Assembly (NCBI GenBank): GCA_937922045.1
Contig: CAKZXA010000087.1
Span: 1 to 33,424, forward strand
DNA: 33,424 bases
Source of the DNA: an uncultured Acidimicrobiales bacterium
GTDB lineage: Bacteria > Actinomycetota > Acidimicrobiia > Acidimicrobiales > SZUA-35
Reading direction: 5' to 3'
Position numbers and translations under genes: made by a program. Positions 15,158 to 29,987 of the stretch are shown here, piece by piece. The notes under the pieces were generated by a model. The model was not told the DNA's origin, did not search any database, and was given only the letters and a program-made list of their open reading frames with translations. How positions within the stretch are numbered: position 1 is the stretch's first letter; each line of letters begins with the position of its first letter.

Positions 15158-16648
15158 GTGGTGGTCTGCGCCCTCGTCGCCACCGCTTGCTCATTGCCGG
15201 CTGAGCTGGCCGAGAGCGTTCGAGAAGATGAAGCGACCGAGACCCCGGCGGAAGGCGAGGTTGGTGGCTCCGAGGGCGACGACCCCCTCGACAGATCAGC
15301 CGAGCGACAGGGCGGCCCCCTCCGCCTGACGGTCCAGGAGACAGCGGAACGAATCGCCGAACTTGGTGGTCAGCTCGCTATCGGCAACGGTCCAGAGCTG
15401 AAGGTGACCCGTCCTGACGGCGGAGCGGCGACTGTGCTCGACGGCGCCGACGGTGCTTCGGTAGCGGCTCAGCCCGTCTGGTCGAACGAAGGAACGTCGT
15501 TGGCATGGGCGTCTTCGAGGCCAGGAGTCGATGGCGCGGGCGCCTCCGTACAGGTCCAACCGTTCGACGAACAGGGTCAACCGACCGACGAACGACTCGA
15601 ATCCGCAGCCCCCGGGTTCCCAATCTTCTACCTGGCATGGGATGCGGCCGATGAGCAACTCGCCTCGCTGCGCAATGGTCCGAACGGAGCAGGACAAGTC
15701 GAGCTTGGGTCGATCGTGCCCGGTTCGCCCCTTCAACCTTGGGCCTACGGAGCCCCCTTCTTTGTTGCCTGGGCTCCAGAGGACGCCCGACTCGCGGCTC
15801 ATGTAAATGCCAGGGCTGTGTGGGTGGCCGATCCGCCGACGACGGGGCCAGGGGCCAAGCCGGGCGCCGAGTCACTAGCGGCCGGAGACGTGCTCGGAGC
15901 GGTCACCGGTACGTTCAGTGTGCTCGACTGGATCGATGACCAGTCGCTGTTGGTCGCCCACGATGGCTTTCTAGCCCTGTTGACGCTCGCGACCGGAACG
16001 AACACCGAATCAAGGTTGCAACCGCTGGTGGCGGTTCCGGATCCTATCGAGTTCACCATCAGCCCCGATCGGACGAAGGTCGCGTACCAAGGCGTGTCGG
16101 CCGACGCTGGAGCGATCACCGTGTCGACAACCTCGAACCCGTCTCCACCTATCTCCGGACGCACCGATGAGATCCAGATCGGCCCGAACGAGCGCAGCCT
16201 GCTGGTCCTCAACTTCCAGACGAACGAGATCGAGATCGTGGCTCGAGACGGCGCGGTGGCTTGGGAGTGGAGCCCCGACAGTGAGCGTCTGGCGTGGCTG
16301 GCGCCGGCCGGGCCTGGTGGCGGCGTGCGGTCCTTGCACCAATGGAATTTCTGGACGAAGGATGATGACGGTGGTACCGGCACAGCCTCCACACAAGCGT
16401 TCACCCTTTCGCGCGCGGTCGAATCGACCTATCTACCCTTCTTCGTTCAGTACAGCCAAAGCGTTACACGATGGTCTCCCGATTCCACCGCTTTCGCCTA
16501 CGCTGCCCGCTTCGGAAGCGATGGTCAGGTGCTGGTTCAGCTGGTCAACGCGGTGGCCCTGCCGCTACCGGTAAGCGAGGGTGACGTGGTCACCTGGGGC
16601 ACCGGGCCAACACCCCCACCCCCAGCGGGTGGCGTCTCGCCGGCCTAG
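15158..16648 (+). CDS. beta-propeller (TolB/WD40-like) lipoprotein
   Basis: An unrecognised secreted protein of at least 496 aa. A run of repeats carries the TolB-like signature: VWSNEGTSLAWAS, FYLAWDAADEQLAS, FVAWAPEDARLAA, FTISPDRTKVAYQG, AWEWSPDSERLAWLA and RWSPDSTAFAYAA. This points to a propeller of about six or seven blades. The hydrophobic start ending in VATAC is a lipobox. The GTG at 15158 gives too short a signal; the frame is open upstream and reads LRKLAPAALAVVVCALVATACS, a proper lipoprotein signal, but I find no ATG, GTG or TTG there in frame, so the start is unresolved (a rare start codon or an upstream sequence error). The next gene encodes a sigma/anti-sigma fusion about 125 nt later, suggesting an envelope sensing role. 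Confidence 0.7.
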   Translation: MVVCALVATACSLPAELAESVREDEATETPAEGEVGGSEGDDPLDRSAERQGGPLRLTVQETAERIAELGGQLAIGNGPELKVTRPDGGAATVLDGADGASVAAQPVWSNEGTSLAWASSRPGVDGAGASVQVQPFDEQGQPTDERLESAAPGFPIFYLAWDAADEQLASLRNGPNGAGQVELGSIVPGSPLQPWAYGAPFFVAWAPEDARLAAHVNARAVWVADPPTTGPGAKPGAESLAAGDVLGAVTGTFSVLDWIDDQSLLVAHDGFLALLTLATGTNTESRLQPLVAVPDPIEFTISPDRTKVAYQGVSADAGAITVSTTSNPSPPISGRTDEIQIGPNERSLLVLNFQTNEIEIVARDGAVAWEWSPDSERLAWLAPAGPGGGVRSLHQWNFWTKDDDGGTGTASTQAFTLSRAVESTYLPFFVQYSQSVTRWSPDSTAFAYAARFGSDGQVLVQLVNAVALPLPVSEGDVVTWGTGPTPPPPAGGVSPA

Positions 16649-16774: not shown

Positions 16775-18409
16775 GTGGACGGTGTAGCAGGACAACAAGT
16801 GACTCGAGACATCGACGACCTGGGGCGCGTGTACGACGTACACAGCGGCCCGGTAGCGGCTGTCCTGTCGACCCTTGTCCGGGATCCGCTGATGTTGGAC
16901 ACCGGTGTTGCCCAAACGTTCCTCACCGCTTGGCAGGCATCGAGATCGTTCGAATCGTCTCGTCCTCTGGCCCCCTGGCTCTTCACCCTCGCTCGTCGCG
17001 TCGGCGTCGAGCTGGCGTCGAGCGATGTGTCATCGGGCTCTGGCCAGCAAGACCCCGTCGGAAACTCCGTGCTGCCTCCTCCTGATCTGCCCGGCCTCGA
17101 TCAGACGTGGGAAATCTGGGAGGTTCGAACCGCGGTCGACCAGTTGAGCGAGAGGGAGGCAATCGTGCTTCGCCTCGAACACTTCGAGCGGCTCACCCAC
17201 CCCGAGATAGCTGATCGGTTGGGGATAGCGGTCGGCACGGTGAAATCACGATCCTACGGAGCCCATCGACACCTCGTTCGATCGCTCGCTCCCATGATCG
17301 GTGGGGTCGGCGAAGGAATCGGTAACGGGCTGGATTTGCGAACGGTAGAGACATCAACCAACCTGTCCGATCTCGTCGGTACGGCCGATGAGATGCGCAC
17401 GGTCAGTACAGTCGCCGAGGGCGACCGGGCCCGTCTGACCGTCGTCCCGGGAGATGTGTCCGTTGGCGACGGTGCCGCAATCAGCGGTGAGATCAGTGAC
17501 GAGGCCGGCGTCGACCCGCAGCTATCGGAGCAGGAGATCCAGCAGCGTCAGCTCGAAGAGGAACATGAGACAGCCCTCAGCTGGTATCTGCACGGGCATG
17601 CTGATGGATCCGCGCTCGAAGTCGCTCAGCGCGAGGTTATTCAGAGGATTCGTCGTCATCTTGCCACCACATGGATGTGGGTTCGGCCGAGCCAGGAGCT
17701 GAGGTTCCGGCTGTTGGCCGAGGCTTCCGGTCAGCCGGTTGATTCAGCCTCCGGCAACCCGGTCAATTTCGCGGACGAGGCCCGTGTCTCCTCGATTGAG
17801 AACACCGCTGTCGCCGTACCGGGCCTGAATCCTTTGCCGCACGAGCAGATCGACCCCGTCGGCGATGAATCGTTGGCGCGCTCGTCTCGACGTCTCCATA
17901 TGCCCTCCAAGATCGCAGCCGACGATGGCGTGGAGCCACGGCAATCGGGCTTTTGGCCCCTGCTGATGGCAGGCGCAGCAATGGTTGTGTTGCTCGGTTT
18001 CATCGGGATGCGGGTTTTCCAGGGCGCTGATGAGCCGATCGATTCCTGGATAGTCCAAGTCGAGTCTCAATCATCGGTTGCTACCGGCCCGGCCACGGTG
18101 GTTGTCCGCCCGACCGCGGGTGGTCTGGAGCTGGAACTCACGCCATCAGGTCTCGGTCGGCCGGTCGGTGGAAGCTACTACGCCGTTTGGCTGCAGACTG
18201 AAAATAGGGATCGCACGGTCCCTGTCGGTTCGTTCTGGTGGCGAGGCGACGAGAGCGCCGTCACCTTGACCAGCGGCGTCGACCCTGCACCTTATAGTCG
18301 TCTTCTGGTGACATCGCAGAGCGAACCTACCGGTGAGAGTTCGCTGCGTCCGAGCGACACCGTCGTCTATGCCGGTTCGATAACTCGTAGCACGCTGATC
18401 GACGACTAG
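16775..18409 (+). CDS. membrane-tethered ECF sigma factor fused to an RskA-like anti-sigma domain
   Basis: A 544 aa fusion. Residues about 15-85 are sigma region 2 (VAQTFLTAWQASRSFE, PLAPWLFTLARRVG); 120-170 are region 4 with the helix-turn-helix (LSEREAIVLRLEHFERLTHPEIADRLGIAVGTVKSR-like). A long acidic linker follows, with an Arg-rich helical patch at 255-315. One membrane span lies at 393-415 (FWPLLMAGAAMVVLLGFIGM). The outside part (425-538) matches the C-terminal domain of RskA anti-sigma-K: YYAVWLQTENRDRTVPVG, VTLTSGVDPAPYSRLLVTSQSEP. Normally sigma and anti-sigma are separate genes; here one chain would hold the sigma factor at the membrane, needing proteolysis or a conformational switch for release (inference). 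The GTG at 16775 follows GAGGGAAGG by 9 nt; the GTG at 16799 is an alternative. Confidence 0.8.
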   Translation: MDGVAGQQVTRDIDDLGRVYDVHSGPVAAVLSTLVRDPLMLDTGVAQTFLTAWQASRSFESSRPLAPWLFTLARRVGVELASSDVSSGSGQQDPVGNSVLPPPDLPGLDQTWEIWEVRTAVDQLSEREAIVLRLEHFERLTHPEIADRLGIAVGTVKSRSYGAHRHLVRSLAPMIGGVGEGIGNGLDLRTVETSTNLSDLVGTADEMRTVSTVAEGDRARLTVVPGDVSVGDGAAISGEISDEAGVDPQLSEQEIQQRQLEEEHETALSWYLHGHADGSALEVAQREVIQRIRRHLATTWMWVRPSQELRFRLLAEASGQPVDSASGNPVNFADEARVSSIENTAVAVPGLNPLPHEQIDPVGDESLARSSRRLHMPSKIAADDGVEPRQSGFWPLLMAGAAMVVLLGFIGMRVFQGADEPIDSWIVQVESQSSVATGPATVVVRPTAGGLELELTPSGLGRPVGGSYYAVWLQTENRDRTVPVGSFWWRGDESAVTLTSGVDPAPYSRLLVTSQSEPTGESSLRPSDTVVYAGSITRSTLIDD

Positions 18410-19548
18410 TCGCCTGTAGGCAGCTGGAAAAGAGCATCCGGATTGTCGGCGAGCCATGTGGCAGCCGAGATGGGTTCAGATCGCTCGTAACCCACCGGCA
18501 GCACCACCGGACCCTCCGTCGTGCGGAAGTAAATCTGCCAGCCGTGGTACCCGTAGTAGGCCTCTTCGTTTGTGGCCATTACCGAGGCGTAGGCCTTGAC
18601 GGCGCCAACGTAATCGTCTGATCGGTTGTAGCCAAAGATCGCCTTGTCCATGTTGTCCGGACCGCCACGATTCACAAGGTAGGTGGCACCTCCGATGATG
18701 GCGTCGCGATCATTGGTCGGATCGCCGGTGCAGCAATCGTTCCAGGTCGAGGGAAGAAACTGCATAGGACCGACCGCCCCCGCGGTGGAGACGCCGGAGA
18801 TTCGTCCGACCCGAGTTTCGATCACATTGATGGCGGCCACGTATGTCCAGTCGATGCCAGTGGCGGCCTCAGCCTCTCGGTAGTAGCTCAGGAGCTCATC
18901 TGCCGGCAAGGGCTCCTTGATCCGCCAGGCCGGCAGCTCATCGGTTACACCGTGATGTTCGACGAGAGCATCCAGGTGTTCACGAGCTGTCCAGTTGGTT
19001 TCGATTGCGGTGGCGATCTCGGCGTCGCTCCCTGGAGCGGAGGTCGTGCTCTCCATCGTTTCCTGCTCCCACTCGGGGCGGAACGACAGCACGGCGTAGA
19101 GCGATTGCTGATAGCGACCCCAGGCGGATCGGGCCTCGGTCGACAGGCTCGTGTTGCGGATGGCTTGTTCGGCTTCAACGAGCCGAACCGCGAGTTCTTG
19201 CGCTGACGTTGGGAGTTCGCCATCGTTGCTTGGAACCGCTTCGAGTTGGGTAGACGGCACCGACGCCGAAGTGGATGGTGCCGATTCACTGGTGGCTAGT
19301 AACGTCTCTGCGGCCCTTGTCGTCGCCGTTGTGGATGGCGTCGACTCGACCTCGTTCGATGATGTTTCGGAGGTCGCAGCAGTAGTGTCGTCGCTGGCAG
19401 ATGAGCCGCAGCCGGCAAGGGCGGCGCTTGCCGCGAGCACAACCCCAAGGCCGATCATGAGGCCGCGCCGATACTCGGTGGATGATCGGGTAAGCCGTGC
19501 ACGCCTTGATAGATCGGCATGACTGAAGTTTGAGAGAGGATCGCCCAT
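18406..19548 (-). CDS. lytic transglycosylase lipoprotein
   Basis: A secreted peptidoglycan-cleaving enzyme of about 380 aa. After a basic N-terminus (SRRARLTRSSTEYRRG) comes a hydrophobic stretch and lipobox (VVLAASAALAGCGSS), then a long Ser/Thr linker, then a helical region, and a C-terminal SLT/MltB-like domain: INVIETRVGRISGVSTAGAVGPMQFLPSTW, where the Glu of IETR is the likely catalytic acid. AIFGYNRSDDYVGAVKAYA is the usual late motif. GTG at 19554 and ATG at 19548 are both possible starts. Its stop codon shares the CTAG at 18406-18409 with the stop of the convergent sigma fusion. The DUF4214 gene lies directly upstream on the same strand. Confidence 0.88.
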   Translation of the reverse strand: MGDPLSNFSHADLSRRARLTRSSTEYRRGLMIGLGVVLAASAALAGCGSSASDDTTAATSETSSNEVESTPSTTATTRAAETLLATSESAPSTSASVPSTQLEAVPSNDGELPTSAQELAVRLVEAEQAIRNTSLSTEARSAWGRYQQSLYAVLSFRPEWEQETMESTTSAPGSDAEIATAIETNWTAREHLDALVEHHGVTDELPAWRIKEPLPADELLSYYREAEAATGIDWTYVAAINVIETRVGRISGVSTAGAVGPMQFLPSTWNDCCTGDPTNDRDAIIGGATYLVNRGGPDNMDKAIFGYNRSDDYVGAVKAYASVMATNEEAYYGYHGWQIYFRTTEGPVVLPVGYERSEPISAATWLADNPDALFQLPTGD

Positions 19549-19578
19549 TCGCACGGCCTGCTGGCCGACCTCGTTTCG

Positions 19579-20430
19579 CTAGCTGCTTGGAGGTTGAATC
19601 TGCCAGCCCAGTCTATGACTGCCGATCGATTCAGGATAGAACACAACCGCCCAACGCGTTGACGAGTTGGCCGAGACGTTCAAAGTATCGGCCAGGCTGT
19701 CACCACTGTGGAGGTGATAGTCCCAGTTGTAGAGGGTGAACCCCGTGCCGATGGTGGCTGAACCGATCGGGGACATCAGAGTTGAGCCGGAAAAAGTTGC
19801 GAGCTGAATGGTGGTGTCGAGTTGCCCAGCGTTCTTGGCGAAGTAGTCGACGTAGGTTATGTTGGCCACCGGAATGATGCTGGTTACCGTGGTCCCCGTC
19901 CCGCAGTACCAGCGCACGCCCTTCGGGTACCAGCGGTAGTAGCCGGCCAGCGGTGTCGCCGTATTGGTTCGTACCACATGCTCTCGTGATTCGCTCAAGG
20001 AGAGAGTGACCTCGCCCCGCGAGGTTCCGGTTTCGAGTGCGATCAGCCAGTGATCCTGTTCGGACTGATCGGGAAGGCGGGCGAACATGTTCGAGTAGAG
20101 CAGGCCGAGGAATTGAACGTCGTCCAACGTTCCGTACCTAGCCACGAAGGTGTCGGAGGTGGCGAGATAGTCGGCGATCTCAAGCAGGTTCATCTCGGCC
20201 GTCTGGTATTTGGTCGCCCAGAAATGCTTGATCGTCGGCGCTGGGTGTTCGTTGAAGTAGGCGAGATGCAATCGCATGATCGAGTCGGTGATTTCCGGGC
20301 ATCCCAGGACCTGGTTCGTGCCAGCCGATGAAGCTGTCGCTCCACTCAACGAGGCCATGAGGAATCCGACGAGAGCCAGGGCGATTCTGAATCGCCTGCG
20401 CGCTGGTTTACTATGCCCCATAGAGATCAT
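19579..20430 (-). CDS. secreted DUF4214-domain protein
   Basis: A 283 aa exported protein. A signal peptide (RRRFRIALALVGFLMASLSGATASSAG) covers about the first 36 residues. Residues about 60-150 look like DUF4214: FVARYGTLDDVQFLGLLYSNMFARLPDQSEQDHW, then SLSESREHV. DUF4214 is found in S-layer-like and surface proteins with no set function. The C-terminal half is a predicted beta domain (GSTLMSPIGSATIGTGFTLYNWDYHLHSGDSL) without a recognised family. ATGs at 20430 and 20421 are possible starts. It ends about 30 nt before the lytic transglycosylase gene, so the two are probably cotranscribed. Confidence 0.75.
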   Translation of the reverse strand: MISMGHSKPARRRFRIALALVGFLMASLSGATASSAGTNQVLGCPEITDSIMRLHLAYFNEHPAPTIKHFWATKYQTAEMNLLEIADYLATSDTFVARYGTLDDVQFLGLLYSNMFARLPDQSEQDHWLIALETGTSRGEVTLSLSESREHVVRTNTATPLAGYYRWYPKGVRWYCGTGTTVTSIIPVANITYVDYFAKNAGQLDTTIQLATFSGSTLMSPIGSATIGTGFTLYNWDYHLHSGDSLADTLNVSANSSTRWAVVFYPESIGSHRLGWQIQPPSS

Positions 20431-27843: not shown

Positions 27844-28308
27844 ATGGATGATCCGATCGAGGCTGCCTATCGAGCAGAGCATGCTCGTTTGTGGCGTGCC
27901 CTCGTCGGCTACTGCCGGGATCAAGATCTCGCCACCGAGGCAGAGGCTGAGGCCTGGAGCCAAGCCATCGCTCGAGGATCAGCGATTGCCAACCCGGCGG
28001 CCTGGGTGTGGACGGCGGCCTTCAAGATCGCGTCAGGCATGTTGGTCGACAAGGGCCGCCGCCGGGTATCGCCCTCGAGTGCTGAGCCGCTAGCCGAAGA
28101 ATCGCCTGCTCTCGTCGAACTGCTCGATCTGCTTGGCGAGCTTTCCGACCAGCAGCGAGCCTGTGTTGTGCTGTGCCACGTTGGCGGTCTAAAGCCGGCT
28201 GACGTTGCGGCGGTACTCGGAACCAGTTCCGGTTCGGTTCGGGTTCAACTTCACCGTGCCCACCGCCAACTCAAACCAGCTTTCATGGCTCTCCGGGAGG
28301 ATCGATGA
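27844..28308 (+). CDS. ECF-type sigma-70 family factor
   Basis: A 154 aa sigma factor with region 2 (AYRAEHARLWRALVGYCRDQDLATEAEAEAWSQAI) and region 4 with a helix-turn-helix (LSDQQRACVVLCHVGGLKPADVAAVLGTSSGSVRVQLHRAHRQL). It would direct RNA polymerase to a small regulon, probably including its own operon. The region 2 core is somewhat diverged (the usual DxxQETF is DLATEAEAEAW here). The ATG at 27844 starts the gene; its stop overlaps the next start in ATGA (28305-28308), so the downstream membrane protein is translated with it in fixed ratio, the usual arrangement for sigma and anti-sigma. Confidence 0.88.
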   Translation: MDDPIEAAYRAEHARLWRALVGYCRDQDLATEAEAEAWSQAIARGSAIANPAAWVWTAAFKIASGMLVDKGRRRVSPSSAEPLAEESPALVELLDLLGELSDQQRACVVLCHVGGLKPADVAAVLGTSSGSVRVQLHRAHRQLKPAFMALREDR

Positions 28309-29987
28309 GCGACGATAACCGTCAGGACGAGGCTCCGGTTGTGCATGAGCTGTTCGAGCGGCTTCTGGCCCCTCTCAACGAGCTTGATCCGCCAGACACG
28401 TGGGCCCGCACGGGCACACCGACGTTTCTCGCTACGACACTTCTCGATACGGCAGGTGCAGCAGGTCGAGGAGCAGAGGAAGATCGTGACCGAGCGTCAG
28501 CCGTCGATGGTGGGCAGGACACCGATCGGCGAAGCGTGCGACGGCGGCCGCGCTGGGCACTGGTTGCGGCTGCCGCGGCCGTCGCCATCGGACTTGTCGG
28601 AGGCTGGCGACTCGTCGAGCGCTTCGTCAACACCTCCGATCCGTATAGTGCTGTCGACGTAGCCAGCGCGCTCGACATGACGGAACCTTCCGATCCGGAG
28701 AAGGCCGGGGAATCCCCCGGCCCTGGGAAGGTGCAAGCGTCGCAGGCTCGGTTCTTCGCGATTGAGTTGGAGGACGGGTCTCGGCTGGGCTTGCGGCTTC
28801 CATCCATCGTTGGCCAAGAGCTCACGGTTGCGCCCCAGTCGAACGGGGGCGAGTTGCTGGCCGAGTTCTACGACGGAGAGGTTTTGTCGGGCGCCATCTT
28901 CCTTCGAGGACACTGCGAGATCTATGAACGGGTGCAACCCGAACAAGCCGCGACTACCCGTCGTGGATTGGTCGTTGAGCACCTGCCTTACCCAGCGAGC
29001 GATGCGTTTACGTTCTGCCGAAACCAGCAGCAGTTGACGCTGTCGATCAAAGGCGACGATGCCCTGGCCGACCACCTCGACGAGTTCGACATCTTGCCCC
29101 TGGTTTGCGGTGATCGCCTCCGCATCGACGATCGGTGGACCGCGCCTTGCCAGCCCGACTTGTTCGGACCGGTGACGGTCGCCGACAGCTCGGGCCGCGA
29201 GCTTGTGGTTTCACTGGCGGGATGGGACGGGGGCGTCGTCACCGCTCTCGATGCAGCGACCTTAGCCCACGTGTGGACGGCCGAGCTTGCCGACGACGCT
29301 CGACTGAGCGCAGTGTTCGATGACCGGCTAGTTGTGATCGGCCGCACCGAGATGGCGGCGCTCAAACTCGACGATGGGGCAGAGCTTTGGCATCATCAGA
29401 TGGATGCCGACCTGACCTTGCTGACAGCGGCTGGTTCCGGTGCCGGCTCGGTTCTGTACACCTTGGGAAACTTCCAGGGTGAGGGTTGGGGCGTTGATCG
29501 TGATGAGCGGGCTCCGCTTCTCTATGCTCACGACGTGGGCACTGGGCGGGAGCTGTGGCGGGCCGAGGGCGATCAAGGCCTCGACTGGATGGGTGATGAG
29601 CTGGTCGTTAGCGGCGATCTGGTGATCGTCATAGACCGTCACTCTGGCGGAGAACTTCGGGACAACGCCATCTGGGTCTTTGACCGCGACACCGGTGATC
29701 AGATCGCCCGCCACAGCATCGGCCCCAGCGGAACTGTTGGGGTGACCAACGGCGGCATCCTTGTGACCGACCAAGGTATCTTCGTCTCAGGGCTCAACGA
29801 GACGGTGACCCGGCTCGACGCCACCACCGGCGACCTCCTGTGGCAGACCGAATTGTTCGGCTACTCCTACATCGAAAGCGTTGACGGCGACACCGTTAAC
29901 CTCCACCACGATGAGTCCGACGTCGATGGCCTGCCCGACCTGTGGACCAGCACAAGCCTCGATCTTGAGACCGGGGATCGGCGCTAG
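28305..29987 (+). CDS. membrane-anchored PQQ-type beta-propeller protein, putative anti-sigma factor
   Basis: A 560 aa protein. The N-terminal 80 residues are cytoplasmic (MSDDNRQDEAPVVHELFERLL) and would be the sigma-binding part; no zinc-binding HxxxCxxC is seen. One membrane span covers about 84-100 (WALVAAAAAVAIGLVGGW). The outside part includes a separate domain (about 145-290, with several Cys) and then PQQ-like repeats: GGVVTALDAATLAHVWTAEL, MAALKLDDGAELWHHQM, LYAHDVGTGRELWRAEG, IWVFDRDTGDQIARHSI, VTRLDATTGDLLWQTEL. The ATGA overlap with the sigma gene supports an anti-sigma role; this is inference from context. The propeller may sense a ligand or wall state. Confidence 0.75.
   Translation: MSDDNRQDEAPVVHELFERLLAPLNELDPPDTWARTGTPTFLATTLLDTAGAAGRGAEEDRDRASAVDGGQDTDRRSVRRRPRWALVAAAAAVAIGLVGGWRLVERFVNTSDPYSAVDVASALDMTEPSDPEKAGESPGPGKVQASQARFFAIELEDGSRLGLRLPSIVGQELTVAPQSNGGELLAEFYDGEVLSGAIFLRGHCEIYERVQPEQAATTRRGLVVEHLPYPASDAFTFCRNQQQLTLSIKGDDALADHLDEFDILPLVCGDRLRIDDRWTAPCQPDLFGPVTVADSSGRELVVSLAGWDGGVVTALDAATLAHVWTAELADDARLSAVFDDRLVVIGRTEMAALKLDDGAELWHHQMDADLTLLTAAGSGAGSVLYTLGNFQGEGWGVDRDERAPLLYAHDVGTGRELWRAEGDQGLDWMGDELVVSGDLVIVIDRHSGGELRDNAIWVFDRDTGDQIARHSIGPSGTVGVTNGGILVTDQGIFVSGLNETVTRLDATTGDLLWQTELFGYSYIESVDGDTVNLHHDESDVDGLPDLWTSTSLDLETGDRR

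Follow-up and report, generated by a model that had tools for sequence, protein, structure and literature searches.

Putative fusion of an ECF sigma factor with its cognate RskA-type membrane anti-sigma factor in an uncultured genus of Acidimicrobiales

Sequence comparison and analogy with characterized systems make it likely that a single gene in the window (the whole stretch of 33,424 nucleotides from an uncultured Acidimicrobiales bacterium) encodes an ECF sigma factor and its cognate RskA-type membrane anti-sigma factor as one polypeptide. The protein would have arisen from a fused overlapping gene pair, its anti-sigma part would clamp the sigma factor in cis, and the sigma factor would be released by proteolysis. 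The frame opens with GTG at 16775, closes with TAG at 18407 to 18409 and encodes 544 residues with zero internal stops, and the two remaining frames of that strand contain 18 and 19 stops. The original prediction of one uninterrupted frame therefore stands, and the same single-frame fusion occurs in six more genomes of the genus. As had also been predicted, a Pfam search of the neighbors (Table 1) found no separate anti-sigma gene adjoining the fusion: a PD40 protein lies upstream on the same strand and a transglycosylase-like protein downstream on the opposite strand.

Table 1. Features of the fused gene and its neighbors (window coordinates; residues are those of the fused protein)
Feature	Coordinates	Strand	Basis and remarks
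PD40 protein, conserved upstream neighbor	15158..16648	+	Pfam; recurring at other fused loci
Fused sigma/anti-sigma gene (putative)	16775..18409	+	544 aa; GTG start with GAGGGAAGG before it
Sigma domain 2	16808..17044	+	residues ~12-90; Sigma70_r2 subthreshold; sigmaE region 2 fold match
Sigma domain 4	17096..17293	+	residues ~108-173; Sigma70_r4_2 40.8 bits; 3hug fold match
Sigma 4/anti-sigma domain linker	17294..17527	+	residues 174-251; disorder predicted at 178-247
Anti-sigma domain (predicted)	17528..17728	+	residues 252-318; four predicted helices; no Cys; aligned with separate anti-sigmas
Cytoplasmic linker	17729..17950	+	residues 319-392; disorder predicted
Single transmembrane segment	17951..18019	+	residues 393-415; hydrophobicity and AlphaFold helix
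Extracytoplasmic RskA_C-like beta domain	18026..18406	+	residues 418-544; PF10099 E 5.5e-5; seven predicted strands
Transglycosylase-like (SLT) protein, downstream neighbor	18406..19554	-	Pfam; lipobox-like N terminus
DUF4214 protein, downstream neighbor	19579..20430	-	Pfam

Both sigma regions that had been read from the sequence were recovered. In a Pfam scan of the whole protein, Sigma70_r4_2 matched residues 116 to 159 with 40.8 bits (cutoff, 25.7) and Sigma70_r4 matched residues 120 to 160 with 33.2 bits (cutoff, 24.1), whereas Sigma70_r2 at residues 20 to 76 stayed slightly below its cutoff (21.9 bits against 24; E 1.5e-4). NCBIfam PRK09645 covered residues 11 to 172 with 75.9 bits, below the curated 202. 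By sequence profile, the nearest solved sigma factors were SigK of M. tuberculosis (4nqw; E 3.2e-14) and SigL (E 2.1e-12). Residues 8 to 90 of the model superimposed on region 2 of E. coli sigmaE (4lup_A; Z 9.4, rmsd 2.2, 81 aligned), and region 4 of SigL (3hug) fitted sigma domain 4 with an rmsd of 1.0 to 2.2 over 64 to 68 columns. Sigma domains 2 and 4 only, the layout of an ECF sigma factor, were thus found by profile and by PDB profile and fold matches. Residues ~12 to 173 are, by sequence, an ECF sigma factor, and sigma function with RNA polymerase is predicted. The window protein has no close relative, and its sigma part is at most 43% identical to any row of our 37-row sigma tree. The whole-chain rmsd of the modeled sigma domains was ~11 to 15 Å to several anti-sigma-bound ECF structures compared to ~22 to 28 Å to polymerase-bound ones, which hints at an inhibited-like arrangement.

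The helical patch at residues 255 to 315 that had been suggested to bind sigma falls within a segment (252 to 318) that could be aligned to the N-terminal domain found in anti-sigmas that the genus encodes as separate genes; it appears to be homologous to that domain and shares its pattern of YL, a charged helix run and then W, P and LR. AlphaFold predicted helices at 252 to 273, 283 to 296, 299 to 302 and 307 to 318 (block pLDDT, 79 to 90). The whole-protein Pfam scan gave no match of this part to a named anti-sigma domain, and none of the structure matches listed covered it. Position, homology and predicted helices fit a class I anti-sigma domain, which is small, helical and N-terminal, ahead of one membrane span. 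It is not a zinc domain, since there is no cysteine among the 544 residues; the distant split relatives L120 to L122 show H-x3-C-x2-C, as judged by eye. At 78 residues, the linker between sigma 4 and the anti-sigma domain exceeds that of every other fused member seen. In G002, G005 and G006 this linker has ~10 residues, and in the G006 model the block from sigma 4 through the joining linker to the anti-sigma domain (101 to 230) has a pLDDT of 75 to 94.

The single membrane segment placed earlier at 393 to 415 agrees with the only hydrophobic stretch, in which the top 19-residue windows begin at 392 to 397, and with an AlphaFold helix at 395 to 415. The RskA-C-like character proposed for the outside domain emerged only when the domain was searched alone. 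RskA_C (PF10099) matched neither the whole protein nor residues 246 to 544, and 4 of 10 homologues matched when scanned as pieces of the latter type (best, 3.8e-12). Residues 418 to 544 alone gave E 5.5e-5 with 23.9 bits, below the curated cutoff of 29.4, and 20 of 23 homologous outside domains matched (best, 2.4e-16). By sequence, the outside domain is related to RskA_C, significantly so only in this separate search and below the cutoff. AlphaFold predicted seven strands, mostly with a pLDDT of 50 to 62. Sequence profiles of the C-terminal half gave only antibody-like chance matches in the PDB. The RskA_C-like residues 311 to 425 of the G006 model (L119, 5001 to 6275) resembled Cu/Zn superoxide dismutases (best Z 9.0, 111 aligned, rmsd 3.1). 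We keep this likeness as a remark, because the block pLDDT is modest (~55 to 75), no superoxide dismutase was among the 50 Foldseek matches listed, there is no sequence link, and the window outside domain has no histidine or cysteine as a metal ligand.

The fusion was found in 7 of 12 genomes of the genus, namely that of the window, G001, G002, G005, G006, G008 and G009; the G008 copy runs off its contig end, and the remainder of its outside domain is on another contig. Five genomes (G004, G005, G006, G010 and G011) carry a split pair, the anti-sigma gene of G011 running off the contig; G005 and G006 thus have both forms, and the search of the 12 genomes found neither form in G003 and G007. 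A stop between the two parts in related genomes had been named as a reason to reject the fusion. Such a stop does occur (L023/L174 in G010), but it marks the other state of the same locus and is not a refutation, since six further genus genomes hold the single-frame fusion. In the family's other 27 genomes, 13 have a strongly scoring homologous anti-sigma, and in 12 of these sigma and anti-sigma lie in separate frames; for the 13th, L072, no sigma was found under the filter used. Overlapping samples of the order (397 genomes), phylum (396) and class (395), in which at most four candidates per genome were scored at E 1e-20, gave no further single-frame match over both halves; long frames there matched over the sigma part only (e.g., G948, 413 aa; G474, 427 aa; G177, 405 aa; G658, 364 aa). 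The window genome also has an ordinary adjacent pair of an ECF sigma factor and an RskA-like protein at G000:C4:143926-145087. In the window itself, a second sigma-like gene (27844 to 28308), with a region 4 match of 52.1 bits, shares an ATGA overlap with the gene at 28305 to 29987, whose 560-residue product has a PQQ beta-propeller and a single hydrophobic stretch near 85 to 104; from their sequences, the two are probably an ordinary split sigma/membrane anti-sigma pair.

The sigma tree left out eight loci as duplicates, along with those that the pattern filter missed, and its bootstrap had not converged completely. In it, a single branch (support, 99/97) separates the seven fused sigmas from 30 split rows, and one change of state is needed. 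Next to them, with lower support (79/93), are L023 and L025, which belong to split pairs from within the genus. Branches within the fused clade are long, and the trio G001/G008/G009 is itself on a long branch. Six fused loci (L115, L118, L119, L123, L124 and L125) have an N-terminal arm of ~200 to 470 residues with a conserved LSDxEAFxLLAxSM ahead of the sigma part, a pattern absent from the window protein and all other loci scanned. The long fused members L115, L123 and L124 share RTTVQY in the cytoplasmic linker from the anti-sigma domain to the span; the window protein lacks it.

The window order (APH, PD40, fused gene, SLT, DUF4214, Exc, PrmA, Ppx) is mostly preserved at the other fused loci within contig reach. 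The PD40 protein has an N terminus that we take, by eye, to be lipobox-like. Three fused loci (G002, G005 and G006) lack SLT in the slot and continue directly into DUF4214; an SLT gene lies elsewhere in G002, and the search gave no SLT match in G005 or G006. Between the same PD40 and SLT genes (with DUF4214), G010 has the split pair, whose genes overlap by ATGA. In G003, G007 and G011, empty gaps of ~240, 30 and 35 bases separate the PD40 and SLT matches, and the 1.4 kb separating them in G004 gave no sigma or anti-sigma match. Therefore, the slot neighbors predate the sigma pair. The simplest reading is that the pair was gained into the slot and then fused, though the empty-slot genomes may instead have lost it. 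Of 10 split junctions examined, 9 overlap, 8 by ATGA or GTGA and L025 by 8 bases; L117 does not overlap. Since the fused genes form one clade, and the same slot holds a split pair in G010 and is empty in three other genomes, the pair was probably fused only once. The steps of the fusion can thus be read from genomes, one relative having two separate genes at the same chromosomal place.

Since the window protein has no close relative, selection was measured on its relatives, as simple NG86 counts. For the fused genes of G005 and G006, dN/dS was 0.07 for sigma, 0.03 for the anti-sigma domain, 0.10 for the span and 0.11 for the outside domain, with 0.55 for the linker and about 0.5 for the N-terminal arm. 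The split paralogues that G005 and G006 also carry gave 0.14 for sigma, 0.18 for anti-sigma, 0.25 for span plus linker and 0.16 for the outside domain. For G009/G001, the values were 0.05 (anti-sigma domain), 0.04 (span) and 0.07 (outside domain), and dS of sigma was saturated. By these counts, the anti-sigma, membrane and outside parts are under purifying selection in two pairs of relatives, and sigma measurably so in one. That assembly or sequencing joined two genes artificially is scarcely credible. Split relatives with overlaps shifted by one base do exist, but the same fusion recurs in seven genomes of one clade with differing linkers and with selection on both halves; because it is present in 7 of the 12 genus genomes and its relatives are under purifying selection, we regard it as real.

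Inspection of G010 suggested the motif GAACC-N17-CGT; the count at fixed spacing followed looser patterns and was thus not planned beforehand. Eight of the 30 split loci have this motif in their upstream region, among them G010 and the pairs in G005 and G006; the other 22, to which two of the genus's five pairs belong, do not. With spacers of 14, 15, 16, 17 and 18 bases, the counts were 0, 1, 1, 8 and 0, where 0.2 to 0.3 were expected from dinucleotide shuffles. According to the available text of PMC8103513, ECF promoters generally have AAC at -35 and CGT at -10, with positive autoregulation, and the motif is consistent with this. None of the seven fused loci has it, even with one mismatch allowed (1.5 expected), which counts as one event rather than seven because the seven form one clade; a loose pattern gave 11 of 30 split loci (2.5 expected) and 0 of 7 fused loci (0.6 expected). 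One exact match, at window position 19185, is internal to the opposite-strand SLT gene. No motif common to all fused genes was found. L123, L124 and L125 share a near-identical block of ~60 bases, ~60 to 130 bases before the start, with TAGTCTA or TAGTGTA; it is better conserved than its flanks and is a candidate promoter of the fused gene.

The fused sigmas have also changed in sequence. Conservation in at least 85% of the 26 split sigmas compared (L078, L074, L121 and L122 were dropped) defined 46 columns, of which the fused sigmas retain 24 to 33, the window protein 33; the six split rows with a reported count retain 42 to 46, having themselves helped to define the columns. The window protein keeps R74, R75, W53, W68 and GTVKSRS and is changed at three columns invariant in the 26 split rows, E79, D84 and G162, the last just past GTVKSRS of sigma 4. 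G001/G008/G009 have lost both the arginines conserved in region 2 and that of VKSR. Since the split-type promoter is absent from all seven fused loci and otherwise invariant sigma residues are altered, the target promoters of the fused sigmas may differ; an altered promoter specificity is plausible. A bolder reading, which we put forward tentatively and consider rather unlikely, is that rewiring followed the fusion: loss of the positive-feedback promoter and change of the promoter-reading residues would have given a membrane-tethered one-molecule receptor-sigma with new targets or, in the extreme case of G001/G008/G009, a sigma kept for its fold, with the N-terminal arm of six of the seven members as an added input.

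How might such a protein work? The cleavage or switch that the original prediction called for remains an inference. In the resting state, the anti-sigma domain would pack on its own sigma domains and the span would hold the unit at the membrane. By analogy with IutY and RskA-type systems, a signal at the outside domain would trigger a first cut outside; a site-2 protease would then cut in or near the membrane and free a fragment of sigma and anti-sigma domain, whose anti-sigma domain would be trimmed or rearranged, making sigma available to RNA polymerase. The fusion would set sigma and anti-sigma at one to one. As far as the available texts go, IutY of Pseudomonas putida is released by Prc and RseP (PMC5411451), proteolytic release is predicted for ECF48, ECF52 and ECF53 (PMC8999054), and RskA of M. 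tuberculosis is reported to be cut by Rip1, the full anti-sigma being able to act as inhibitor and as activator of SigK (PMC7509140). Because RskA can act both ways, a permanently attached anti-sigma piece is less odd than it may seem. The window genome has five loci for M50 (site-2 type) proteases, which is general rather than specific evidence. Counting against release from a cis clamp are the divergence of the window protein, its 78-residue linker and the lack of a split-type ECF promoter in front.

Two other modes of action are improbable, to about the same degree. A switch without cleavage, in which a conformational change relayed by the outside domain lets sigma work with polymerase while still tethered to the membrane, would be helped by the long, presumably flexible linkers at 174 to 251 and 319 to 392, and the available text of PMC8999054 lists conformational and protein-interaction classes among ECFs with C-terminal extensions. 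However, a tethered holoenzyme would reach few promoters, and IutY, the sole experimentally characterized fusion named in that text, acts by proteolysis. Alternatively, the sigma part may have degenerated: no longer starting transcription, it would have a structural role beside the anti-sigma domain of a membrane sensor. The loss of conserved columns and of arginines in the trio, the long branches and the missing promoter all point this way; opposed to them are the low dN/dS of fused sigma in G005/G006, the good AlphaFold prediction of both sigma domains and the residues that the window protein retains. That an internal start yields free anti-sigma beside the fusion is far less probable still: in-frame candidates in the window gene are ATG at 174 and 207 and GTG at 228, the last with a Shine-Dalgarno-like stretch shortly before it, but no start is common to the fused members, and in the scanned stretch L118 has a single TTG and L125 has none. 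Proteolytic release from a cis clamp remains our preferred reading.

The original prediction had cautioned that novelty would depend on the combination of parts, and rightly so: fusion of a sigma factor to a membrane anti-sigma factor is already known from IutY and from ECF48, ECF52 and ECF53. Among the closest known systems are the split pairs of a SigL/SigK-like ECF sigma factor and an RskA_C-type anti-sigma (e.g., L023/L174 of G010, L113 of Sporichthyaceae and L114 of Kineosporia), with homologous sigma, anti-sigma domain, span and RskA_C domain, in G010 also in the same chromosomal slot; unlike the fusion, they consist of two genes overlapping by a few bases, and these three have GAACC-N17-CGT upstream. 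SigK-RskA of M. tuberculosis (4nqw) provides the best solved sigma by profile, has an RskA_C outside domain and, as described in the literature searched, an anti-sigma domain that is likewise free of zinc, but it consists of two proteins, and SigK has two cysteines that matter (PMC7509140), where the window protein has none. IutY (ECF243) unites sigma and membrane anti-sigma in one polypeptide, according to the available text of PMC5411451, but serves iron cell-surface signaling with an outer-membrane receptor, whereas the window protein is actinobacterial and has an RskA_C-like domain; Pfam found no FecR-type domain in it. The actinobacterial ECF48, ECF52 (SCO4117) and ECF53 also combine sigma, anti-sigma domain, span and outside domain; as described in the available text of PMC8999054, their anti-sigma is a zinc finger (ZAS), in contrast to the cysteine-free window protein, and ECF52 has a proline-rich part and a carbohydrate-binding module, for which Pfam gave no match in the window protein at E ≤1. 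The literature searched contained no fusion to an RskA-type anti-sigma free of zinc, though this one may have been listed earlier in an ECF reclassification.

Sigma/anti-sigma fusions are few, and one of them, IutY, has been worked out. This genus shows an empty slot, a two-gene pair and a fusion at one chromosomal position, and G005 and G006 provide a control within one genome. Therefore, it can be tested what is gained when the inhibitor is never lost or outnumbered, and also whether fusion forces a shift from self-amplifying to nonamplifying control.
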